64,000 nt of DNA from Turbatrix aceti (taxonomy: Eukaryota > Nematoda > Chromadorea > Rhabditida > Panagrolaimidae): positions 62,001 to 126,000 of the forward strand of contig OZ017767.1 in the NCBI GenBank assembly GCA_963969345.1, written 5' to 3'. Shown here piece by piece: positions 28,531 through 50,292 of the stretch (position 1 is its first letter; every line of letters begins with the position of its first letter). Below the pieces are notes generated by a model. The model saw nothing but the letters and a program-made list of their open reading frames with translations. It was not told the DNA's origin and did not search any database. The position numbers and the translations under genes were made by a program.

Positions 28531-31256
28531 TTAATCAATAAACTTTTCAGTCCAAGACCACTTTTGGTAAGGATCACCCGAATTGCAGCTTGTGAGGGTG
28601 ATATCTGCATTTCCACTGGGTTCAGATGCCGTGATGCACTTGTTGTCCTCGCTGCTGCGAATCTGCTGAGTGGATGCGTCATACTTCCAGGGTCCCTCGA
28701 CAGAGCCCTTTGTGCAGTGGCCAGTTCGTGCACGTTTTCCAACCGGCTTGATACACCATTCGCCCTGGGCAAGTTGACCGGCTTCGTTAATGCGAAACAG
28801 CTGAAAGTTTGGTGATGCCGTAAGTTTTCAAGGGGTAAACGGAAAGGAAAGCCCGTGGCATTAGAAAAAAGACGTCAACAAAAATACAAAATGTTCCTTC
28901 GCAAGTTGGCTGATTCTGTATCACAAACAACATTTCACATGCCCAGTTAGCGTTTGGTACAAAGTATTCAGTTATGCTTAGTTTCCTGTGCACGCAAGTG
29001 TCGGTCGAGCAAAGTCAGGCTACGATTACAATTTGTTAAAAAAAAATTGTCGTGACGTTGTTACTAGGTGGTAGGCTCGTGGCGCTACAAGAATAACAAT
29101 TACAAAAACTCGGGGATTACAAAACATATGCCGATTTTACTTTTATACTTCTACTTCAAAAGCGCCAACTACGGAAGTACATTTCAGGCACTCGCAATCC
29201 ACAAAAAATATGCAATTTAAATTCAAATCATTAAAATTTGCCCCCAACAACATACCTGGTTGCCACCGTAGCCGTGACACGGCGTAGCACCGAGTGTTCC
29301 GGGAATAGCACGCCCCATAGTATCCAGACAGCGTCCCGACTTCAGATTCTTCGCTTCACCCCATACAACGTTGTTCGGGAGCTTCGGATAACTTTCCTCA
29401 ACGTCATAGGCGACGTTCTTGACATACCAATCAAAGTTCTTACAGTGAAGGTTTTTACGAAGAGCGAGCTGGGCTGAGATGTCGCCGGGATCCCGCTTCT
29501 GAGCTTGAGGTTCGCGGATGTAGTAGTACTTGGAGTACTCATCCATCCACGTCTTCACCACTCTGACCATGTTGGTCGAAATGACAGGCTTGCCGGAGAG
29601 CTTGCCAAAGCCGTACGGCATATGGGTACGGTAGACGTGTCCGACGTGGGAACAGGGAACAAAGAGAATTCCTCCGCCGCACATCCAGATCTTGAAAGAC
29701 AATTCGTATTGCTCACCTCCCCAGATCTGGAGTCCCGGGTCGTAGTAGCCGAGCTCTTCAAACCACTTCTTGTCGATGGCAAAAAGACCTCCGGCGTGAG
29801 TGGGAGACCGGAAAGGCTGGCTGTGGTGTTTACGGGTTGACGCTTCGCGATCCGAGATCTGTGTTTCCTTGTACAACAGACCCCATTCGAAGATGCCTCG
29901 GAAATGCACGGAAGCGCTGCCGTAAACTCTTCTGTACTCCCATGTGTTCATATCGATACCATCGATGACGGGAACGGTCATGACTTTTCGATTGCGACGA
30001 ATCGGAGCCAGAAGAGGTACCAGCCAGTTGCGATTGACCTCACAGTGAGCATCCAGGAAGATAACGACCTCGGCAGTCGCAGCCATAGCACCGTTGGTTC
30101 GGGTCCGGATTAGGCCCTCGCGTTCCTTGTTTCGGATAAGTTTCACCTTGCCATTGAACTGCTTGACGTACTCGTCCAGCCGGCCTTTGAGGTGTTCTGA
30201 AAACGTATGACGTGTTATCTTGTAAGCAAATCGTCTCGCCAATTTTTTTTCTACTTATATACAAGATTGATTCAATCTGACGTTAAAGGATAAAATCGAC
30301 AGAAAACAAGGTTCTTGTTTCGTTCAGCTCAAAGGCAACGTCGGAAAAAATAATCAAGATTCCAGAAAGCAGATATAAATGCGTATAAAAAATTAGGAAA
30401 CTTTTGAATTACAAAAAAAGTAAGAAAATTACCTTTGTCACTAAAGTCGTCCACGAGAATGATTTCCTTGAGATACCGTGGGGGGCTTCTCAAAATCACA
30501 GAATGAACTGTACGTAGAAGAGGGGTAAACCCTTCGTTGTGGAAGGCAATAACAACTGATGCTGTTGGCAGGTCCTCAGGATAGTGCCAGTACTTGCACC
30601 TAAAAACGATTAATGTTATAAAAACTTTTCATTGAAATAAGAAAACATACTCATCCATCCTGACATCAGAAAGAGATCGGTTCATCGATATCATGTCCGA
30701 TACGTATGTATTGAATCCAAATTCAGACATTGCACGCCTGACTTCGGGTTTATTCGCGTCTACCGACACTGGCTTACCCAGCTCGCCTAAAAACACAAGA
30801 ATAACCTTTTACCATAATTGGAGCAAAACTTACCAGGACCACCGTTGTCTACCTCTTCTGGGGGCTCAAAATTTCCCAAGGTATCGAGCAGAACAACGTC
30901 TGGATCATCAGAACCGGGCAATTCGTCTGAATTTTGGAACGACAGCCGAGGAGCGGCGACAGGGATTTGGAGGACGTGGTCGATGTGCTCCGCATGACGC
31001 TCTTCAGGAGAATCACCAACGGAAGCAAGAAGGAAGATGACAAAAAGGATGCCAATCGCAAAAGCAATAAACTGCACCGTCCTGAAAAACAACCCGTTAG
31101 GCTAGGTTAAATGCAAAAAATGATAAAAACTTACTGATGCCTGAACAGTCGCTTGATCTCATAAAACTTCCGCTTCATCGACATCCCGCTACCAGTCATC
31201 TCTGGTCTGAATTTGTCGTCGAGTGTCAGGGATGATGATATGCCCTGACGAGGCAT
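28531..31256 (-). CDS. gly-7: Polypeptide N-acetylgalactosaminyltransferase, GALNT7/gly-7 type
   Basis: Exons 31256-31135, 31081-30834, 30786-30651, 30599-30433, 30196-29256 and 28800-28531 (627 residues). The enzyme transfers GalNAc to Ser/Thr in the Golgi (mucin-type O-glycosylation). A cytoplasmic tail (ends [14 protein letters not shown]), one membrane anchor ([19 protein letters not shown]) and an acidic stem precede the GT27 domain. The catalytic parts are [10 protein letters not shown], the manganese-binding FLDAHCEVN (DxH), [20 protein letters not shown] (usual GGEN is GGEQ) and SHVGHVYR. The last exon completes a ricin-type lectin domain (CLDT, GGNQLFRI, NKCITAS, YQKWSW) and has no ATG, so it is easily missed. 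The blocks are closest to GALNT7, a follow-up enzyme preferring pre-glycosylated peptides. The start is at 31256, just after a TTCAG acceptor; 31199 is an alternative. Confidence 0.94.
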
Positions 31257-32046: not shown

Positions 32047-33466
32047 TTAAGAGGTACCAACAATCGTGATTTCCTGCGTGTTCCGCCGTAGAACTCCAGC
32101 AAGAGCACACCGATGCTTTTCGTATAACTTCGATGCGATAACAATCCGCTGGCAACCCGGGAGCTAAAAAATAATACTTTCAGTTGACTACGTCATTTTC
32201 ATGATTAAACTTACAGATTCACTTATTTTAAGAAAGTCTGCCATGCCATCGATGGATTGGGCTTTAGTAGAAAGATAAAATGTATCACAAACTACGAACT
32301 TGAGTAATGCCATATCAATCTAAAATATTTTTCGGCAATTGCAAAAAAAAAAACAAAAGCATGCAGAAACTTACGACTTCTCCTTTGGCCATAATCATGG
32401 TGGCTGACGAATTCGCAATGAAGATGTCGCAGACGCCTCGACATGCCTTGATTTCAGATAAAACGTCGTCGCAGTTGACGCAACAAACGACGCATTCCGT
32501 TTTGTAAGCAATCTGTTTGAACACCTCATAGGTAGACTGCGGGTTTTCGGAAACGACGATCACAAATGGAGAAATCTTGCCTTCCCGATTTATCTCGCAT
32601 TCCTGTTTCAAGTAGACTACGTGTTGAACGAGCGAGATTGCGGCACCTGTGGTTGCTCCGAAGCCACTACTAACCCTCACAAGGATGTCCTGATCTGGAA
32701 TATGATTTAAAATGACCAAAAAAAAAAGATTTGAAAAAAACCCTACCTTTAAGCACATTCAGAGAAGGGATAAGCAAGGACTGCAGGTTTGTCAGACGAA
32801 TATAGCCCAGGCGCGCAACATTGCTACGGACTTGGGGCACAATGGTAACGTTCGTAATAACGCTAGAAAAAAATTTTCATGCAAAATCTGTAATTAAAAA
32901 ACATACCTTGTTTTCAGAGGCGAATGATGAAAAACGTGATCAATGAATCCTTGAGAGATAATAGAATCGCTATCAAATCGATAGCGATCGTACTTGGTAC
33001 TTTGATTAACTGGAATTGCGATATGGTCACTCTCAGGTGGCTGCACGTCGTTGAGCAGATGAGGAATGTTAGTGATCTTGACTTCGTCGCCGGTTTCGCC
33101 ATGCCGAAGAGTCAAAAAGCCGGAACAGCTGATTTCGAACACCTCGTATGGCGTTTTCTTCACGCCCGCTGAGACACTCGTCACGCTGGTTTTATAAATA
33201 GCACTATAAAGCATCATTTTAGATACAGAATAAAAAGAAGCAAATTACTCATATTTGGCAACTAAGAGCGCCAAAGGTCGGAATTCAGAAAGTAGGTCAG
33301 CATACTTCTGACACAACTGGAACACCTTCGATCTAAATGGCAGAAGATCGAGTGCGCCATCGTCACCGGGGAATTCCGTATGATATGGATAAAATTTCAC
33401 ATCAGAAAGGAACACTGGCTCACCCATTATGAGATAGCGCAAAGAAAAGCGACCAACAAACGGCAA
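32047..33466 (-). CDS. Single-lobe pseudo-DEAD-box helicase
   Basis: Six exons: 33466-33249, 33203-32907, 32862-32747, 32694-32375, 32319-32215 and 32163-32047 (390 residues, all phases consistent). After a non-conserved N-terminus of about 180 residues, the motifs of a DEAD-box RecA1 lobe appear in order but broken. The Q-motif region GYIRLTNLQ is kept. Motif I is GFGAT instead of GSGKT (Lys lost). Motif Ia is SENPQ instead of PTREL. Motif Ib is NSSAT instead of TPGRL. Motif II is DTFY instead of DEAD (KFVVCDTFY). Motif III is ASK instead of SAT (QRIVIASKLY). The protein then stops (EITIVGTS) where the second RecA lobe would begin. ATP hydrolysis and unwinding are therefore not expected. It could be an RNA- or partner-binding scaffold derived from a Vasa-like helicase. 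The start could be 33466 or 33427. The DEAD-box assignment is inference from motif order. Confidence 0.72.
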
Positions 33467-34040
33467 AAAACGAACATCAAATGACCGAAAAGAAAAAGTT
33501 GAACGCTGGATTGCCGTATACTATATAAGTTACGTCGCTGTTTACGTCCGATTACACATTTCGTGCCAAGAAATTTTGCTCTATCGTACGCCTCTTTCTT
33601 TTGGAGTCGATTAATTGCGCGTTACATTATCGTTTTCGACGCTTATCAGTGCATTTTTAAGCTAATCGCTTGATTTCTGCGAATCATTTGCATTGCTGGG
33701 AACATGGTTAATTCATTTTGCCTGATGCACGAGGTCGTTTATAATTATGAGGCAGAATGTAGGATTTCTTCCCTCGTTGCGATGAAGTGCAATTTGTCTA
33801 GGTCATTTTTCGCCTATTGTTCATATTTATATTTTTTTTCGATTATGCACAACGTGTTGTGCAATTTTTAGCCAAATGCAAGCCAATTCCCAACCGGTTG
33901 CCATCCAAGTATGAATTTTGATATTTACAAAGCATAAAATGAATATTTACAATGCATAATGACCAGAATACTTTTTCTAAAATTCTTATTTCTACATTTT
34001 GTAAACTATTCAATATGATGCCAATGAATTATGGTTCTTA

Positions 34041-44434: not shown

Positions 44435-50292
<5,858 letters not shown>

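Follow-up and report, generated by a model that had tools for sequence, protein, structure and literature searches.

A duplicated gene for a probable single-lobe DEAD-box pseudohelicase in the nematode Turbatrix aceti and its possible role as a binding module

A six-exon gene in a probable subtelomeric window

The window analysed here is a stretch of 64,000 nucleotides (C2:62001-126000) from the genome of Turbatrix aceti, which amounts to 59.9 Mb in 28 contigs. The telomere repeat of nematodes is TTAGGC, and a few copies of its complement, GCCTAA, are found at the start of contig C2. Because these repeats open the contig, the window is probably subtelomeric. The minus strand carries a gene of six exons at positions 33427-32047 of the window, which encodes a protein of 377 residues; each of its five introns, of 44-55 bases, begins with GT and ends with AG, and the exon phases fit together. 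Exon 1 (33249-33427) begins with the ATG at 33427-33425 and is also found in the second copy of the gene described below. It is followed by exon 2 (32907-33203), exon 3 (32747-32862), exon 4 (32375-32694) carrying motifs I, Ia and Ib, exon 5 (32215-32319) carrying motif II, and exon 6 (32047-32163), which contains motif III and the stop codon. The 5' boundaries of exons 3, 5 and 6 are placed as in other DEAD-box genes of this genome. The splice sites and the open frame from the ATG to the stop ending at 32047 bear out the six exons with consistent phases of the first-pass annotation. Its end at 32047 stands as well, but not its start at 33466 or its length of 390 residues, as the 13 additional codons contain no ATG.

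The next gene downstream (29223-31101, minus strand) codes for a glycosyltransferase containing Glycos_transf_2 and Glyco_transf_7C domains, presumably of the GALNT kind; a hydrophobic and possibly membrane-anchoring stretch of this protein lies in the open frame 30787-31101. Elsewhere in the window, an open stretch of 584 codons (44895-46649, minus strand) matches DUF229 over nearly the whole profile (E 1.2e-117).

The DEAD-box lobe, its altered motifs and its N-terminus

Residues 183-358 align with the first RecA lobe of DEAD-box proteins through motif III in a profile-profile comparison (hhalign, probability 97%). A DEAD profile generated from 22 of 30 DEAD loci collected from this genome (all but L055, L058, L060, L066, L069, L070, L071 and L073, of which L071 did enter the 17-sequence tree and the motif survey discussed below) gave 32.2 bits for the gene and 32.8 bits for the second copy. 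The best of 4000 shuffled sequences, 2000 of each copy scored on three profiles, reached 7.4 bits on this profile, and 8.1 and 9.7 bits on two sub-profiles. Among solved structures, the one nearest in sequence is that of the planarian vasa-like protein DjVLGB (1wrb), with an E value of 3.3e-4, or 7e-5 using a two-copy profile. A search with the Pfam DEAD profile (PF00270), one of the checks proposed with the first-pass annotation, matched residues 184-316 of the gene product (E 4.4e-4), but its 20.5 bits fall short of the Pfam cut-off of 26 bits; the second copy returned no match in this search. Neither the gene nor the two-copy alignment found a match among 5.8 billion protein sequences, whose nematode coverage is uncertain, and AlphaFold applied to exon 4 alone gave an uninformative model with a pLDDT of 38. 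The Pfam and DjVLGB matches, the hhalign result and the score of 32.2 bits relative to the shuffles support the descent from a DEAD-box first lobe proposed at the outset, and we consider the identity of this lobe shown at the level of sequence.

Counterparts of the helicase motifs occur in the translation in the order in which they were first reported: the Q motif GYIRLTNLQ (32781-32807), motif I GFGAT (32651-32665), motif Ia SENPQS (32534-32551), motif Ib NSSAT (32399-32413), motif II DTFY (32275-32286) and motif III ASK (32128-32136), all on the minus strand. Motifs I, Ia, Ib and II were located by alignment to DEAD proteins and motif III by profile-profile alignment. The Walker lysine, replaced by alanine, the glutamate and last aspartate of motif II, the arginine of motif Ia, the GR of motif Ib and the SAT of motif III are lost. 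The glutamine of the Q motif, the GxG and following threonine of motif I and the first aspartate of motif II are kept, however, and to call every catalytic motif broken, as was done initially, is accurate for the Walker lysine, the acidic residues of motif II and SAT but overstated for these retained positions. Among 23 DEAD fragments of the genome, gathered by a search that favours motif-bearing genes, motif I reads GKT in 20, and the remaining 3 start after it; the DExD pattern of motif II is present in 17, and the remaining 6 end before it. In one of the fragments surveyed, L001, the pattern fell on an insert, the true DEAD being present.

The stop codon lies approximately at the inter-lobe linker, before the position of the second RecA lobe, in approximate agreement with the earlier placement of the stop at the start of that lobe. 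None of the 94 genome matches to Helicase_C (PF00271, E up to 10; a lower bound, from a search that ignores introns) falls within the 64 kb window or within C6:8150500-8160499, around the second copy. These results bear on whether the gene model is incomplete and the second lobe is encoded on a longer isoform or a trans-spliced product. We regard this as very improbable, given also that the stops of the two copies nearly coincide and that a possible polyadenylation signal, AATAAA, is found about 78 bases past the stop of the second copy.

The N-terminal region, residues 1-157 (32912-33427, minus strand), covers exon 1, intron 1 and most of exon 2, and is shorter than the approximately 180 residues first attributed to it. 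Nothing similar to it was detected outside the two copies, whether in Pfam, in the 5.8 billion protein sequences or in the genome itself. By eye it resembled an extended Tudor domain, as would be expected of a Tudor-DEAD protein of the TDRD12/Yb kind. Such a protein is hardly credible here: Pfam Tudor has no match in either copy, and a Tudor profile made from 9 of 12 matched fragments of this genome scored -0.9 bits on the gene and -0.5 bits on the second copy, below the best shuffle at 9.1 bits. The hhalign probability was 0.1%, and the second helicase lobe is absent. The Tudor domain was rejected on the basis of the profile score and of hhalign.

A second copy and the constraint on the protein

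A paralog of 363 residues, 49% identical to the gene product, is encoded at C6:8154617-8155963 on the plus strand; it was the one paralog found among the best candidates, which were those scored. It consists of six exons with the same phases and the same truncation, and its splice sites are intact. Its motifs read DRGAT, SENPES, NSSIS, DTFD and SRK. Both copies depart from DEAD-box helicases at the Walker A lysine (GFGAT and DRGAT), at DExD (DTFY and DTFD) and at SAT (ASK and SRK), and as intact genes that have lost helicase motifs both resemble a pseudohelicase such as Utp25 in this respect. Since the replacements GAT, SENP, NSS and DTF are common to the two copies, they suggest that the loss of the second lobe and of the ATP-site residues predates the split between them. 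Using strand and helix limits set by us from the family, identity between the copies amounts to 13 of 15 residues in the Q region, 8/8 in strand 2 and 13/17 in helix 1, as well as 4/9 in strand 1, 3/7 in strand 6 and 2/6 in strand 7.

The stretches upstream of the two copies (33428-33650 of the window and L022:3950-4117) can also be aligned, with 111 of 168 aligned bases alike and 55 gap columns. Both contain the string TTGGCACGAAATGT, which may be a promoter element common to the two copies.

In a DNA-only alignment of the two copies, codon positions 1, 2 and 3 are alike at 238/360, 247/358 and 188/359 sites, respectively (p 5.6e-6). Tested exon by exon, from 1 to 6, the same comparison gives p values of 0.12, 0.42, 0.00038, 0.053, 0.57 and 0.0011, exons 1, 2, 4 and 5 singly not reaching 0.05. 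Four methods place dN/dS between 0.35 and 0.52, values drawn from a single pair in one genome with dS near 1. For the whole protein LWL85 yields 0.42, with a bootstrap range of 0.32-0.55 (299 of 300 replicates usable); the range is 0.20-0.65 for residues 1-157 (213 of 300 replicates usable) and 0.27-0.58 for residues 158-377. No bootstrap value reached 1, including all 299 usable replicates for the whole protein.

These data have to be weighed against the reading that both copies are dying helicase remnants under relaxed constraint whose frames are open by chance. For a helicase core, a dN/dS near 0.4 is high, and exons 1, 2 and 6 are less alike between the copies than any of the five introns, both of which would fit decay. 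The codon-position signal, the bootstrap values below 1 and the intact splice sites in both copies argue against it, as does a neutral simulation with 20, 25 or 30% substitution per copy: at none of the three divergences did any of the 5000 runs keep both frames open, and one given copy stayed open in 8, 3 and 0 of 5000 runs, respectively, under substitutions only and no indels. Chance survival of two remnants is consequently improbable. The second intact copy, together with the codon-position signal and dN/dS, upholds the initial view of a maintained rather than decaying gene, and shows that coding selection has been at work since the copies split. As judged from these comparisons, the protein is maintained, yet fast-evolving, and its constraint is only moderate because the introns (69-85% alike) are more similar between the copies than the exons (52-71%).

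Origin and possible role

The DDX and GLH labels used for the loci of this genome are our assumption. Three introns of the gene are placed as in other DEAD-box genes. Intron 2, at the 5' boundary of exon 3, is in phase 2 and precedes the glycine of the Q region by 55 bases, a placement shared with L006, L052 and L063; this match is exact in three of the six Vasa-like genes anchored there (L056 has its intron at 52), other DEAD genes not being anchored. Intron 4, before exon 5, lies 33 bases ahead of motif II in phase 0, as in L062, one of 16 DEAD genes examined. Intron 5, before exon 6, lies 27 bases ahead of motif III in phase 0, as in L052, L062 and L063, three of 15 DEAD genes; L006 also shares this position by eye, having been missed by the acceptor filter. 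As this filter seeks T-rich acceptors and misses some introns, absent matches mean little.

Profile scores are less clear than the intron positions. A profile of five GLH-like genes gave 32.4 bits for the second copy and 25.5 bits for the gene, compared with 21.4 and 22.1 bits using a profile of 16 other DEAD fragments; the preference for the GLH-like profile is thus clear for the second copy (11 bits) and slight for the gene. Adding L062, which was chosen for its likeness to the pair and therefore inflates the contrast, raises the GLH scores to 43.2 bits for the copy and 32.2 bits for the gene, against the same 21.4 and 22.1 bits. The best single match of the second copy is the GLH-like L063 (24.4 bits). 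In a reverse search over the collected loci, the best matches outside the pair are L062 (E 9e-5), L057 (E 9e-4), L054 (E 0.004) and L019 (E 0.013), followed at lower ranks by L063 (E 0.039) and L006 (E 0.08).

Descent from another DEAD-box gene, not Vasa/GLH-like, would account for several of the remaining results. The best single match of the gene is the DDX20-like L054 (14.6 bits), ahead of the GLH-like L063 (13.5 bits) and L062 (11.9 bits), hhalign returns the same 95% whether the comparison is with the GLH set or with other DEAD genes, and a tree of 17 first-lobe sequences leaves the pair unplaced on a branch of length 4.0; in the same tree L062, called Vasa-like by eye, falls outside the GLH genes. 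The positions of introns 2 and 5, common to L052 and L063, and the 11-bit preference of the second copy speak against such a source, which we find doubtful. The probable source is a Vasa/GLH-like gene with two lobes whose introns were copied along with it, a judgement that rests mostly on the intron positions. The Vasa-like origin first proposed is therefore favoured by introns and scores, but not by hhalign or the tree.

The pair resembles Vasa/GLH (DDX4) proteins in its first lobe and shares intron 2 and 5 positions with the GLH-like genes of the same genome, but lacks the second lobe, the ATP-site lysine, DExD and glycine-rich repeats in the N-terminus. According to the available text of PMC10378496, all Vasa-specific domains are present in the elegans paralogs. 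L062 and L057 are the best reverse matches of the pair, and L062 shares the positions of introns 4 and 5 exactly; unlike the pair, L062, L056 and L057 keep GKT, DEAD or DEVD, and SAT, and a Helicase_C match adjoins each. L056 (C4:10944175) and L057 (C4:11186928) are divergent Vasa/GLH-like helicases with two lobes, in which DEVD replaces DEAD and motif Ib is altered. They represent a set of Vasa-like genes of this genome that evolves fast.

DEAD-box unwinding needs ATP binding through the Walker lysine and closure against the second lobe. Because both are gone, helicase action is unlikely, judging by sequence, and the gene probably codes for a helicase without a motor that is kept for another job. 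We propose that it is a duplicated single-lobe pseudohelicase, most likely serving as a binding module for partners of Vasa/GLH-like helicases, and assign this reading a probability of about 0.58. The lobe would still fold, its catalytic loops carrying new letters, and deprived of ATP and of a second lobe it would neither clamp nor unwind RNA. The first lobe and the lineage-specific N-terminus would then act by binding, and the module may bind partners of this worm's catalytic Vasa/GLH-like helicases, either holding them or competing for them, perhaps within germ granules. Both the role as competitor or scaffold and the placement in the germline are guessed from ancestry. Competition, if any, would be for first-lobe contacts, because the LOTUS domain of Drosophila Oskar attaches to the second lobe of Vasa and does not bind the N-terminal domain (PMC5458760); a contact of this type is not available to a single-lobe protein. 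A broader version, in which a one-lobe, ATP-free regulator family derived from a Vasa/GLH-like helicase in a nematode lineage antagonises or organises its relatives in germ granules, the new loop residues serving the new job, is possible but tentative.

The protein could instead have kept RNA binding and be an ATP-independent RNA-binding factor, not a competitor that binds proteins. In DEAD-box proteins the first lobe touches RNA via motifs Ia and Ib, whose counterparts are alike between the copies at 4/5 and 3/5 positions. The arginine of Ia and the GR of Ib are part of these RNA-contacting motifs, however, and both are lost, which makes this function rather unlikely. If the gene is indeed maintained with the first RecA lobe alone, half a DEAD-box core would be useful by itself, and the pair with its shared changed loops would offer a clean case for what a RecA lobe binds without ATP.

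Among the closest known systems is Utp25/Def of the SSU processome, which a 2022 paper (PMC9539457) describes as only the second pseudohelicase to be proposed and the first to be fully validated. It is likewise of DEAD-box descent with its catalytic motifs largely gone, and is retained and thought to act as a cofactor, but its two RecA domains are both present and yeast requires it for life (PMC9539457), whereas the gene reported here has one lobe, an unrelated N-terminus and a copy pair in one worm. PriA of Deinococcus radiodurans (PMC4504706, as described in the same portion of PMC9539457) is also a helicase without ATPase and unwinding activity, but a bacterial DNA helicase of other origin. 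Among the literature matches listed on pseudohelicases and on truncated or degenerate DEAD-box proteins, no title or opening of an abstract described a retained gene for a single-lobe DEAD-box protein, and the available text of a study of truncated helicases in tombusvirus replication (PMC7577489) holds nothing on single lobes. The term pseudohelicase, sought under three spellings in a full-text literature search, is itself rare in print, occurring in 4 of 5.39 million papers.

Elsewhere in the genome, the first 10 kb of L027 (contig C3, 17293 bases) showed no sign that this contig is mitochondrial. They include a 1353-codon open frame under code 5, and also open stretches present in duplicate; this is perhaps a mobile element.
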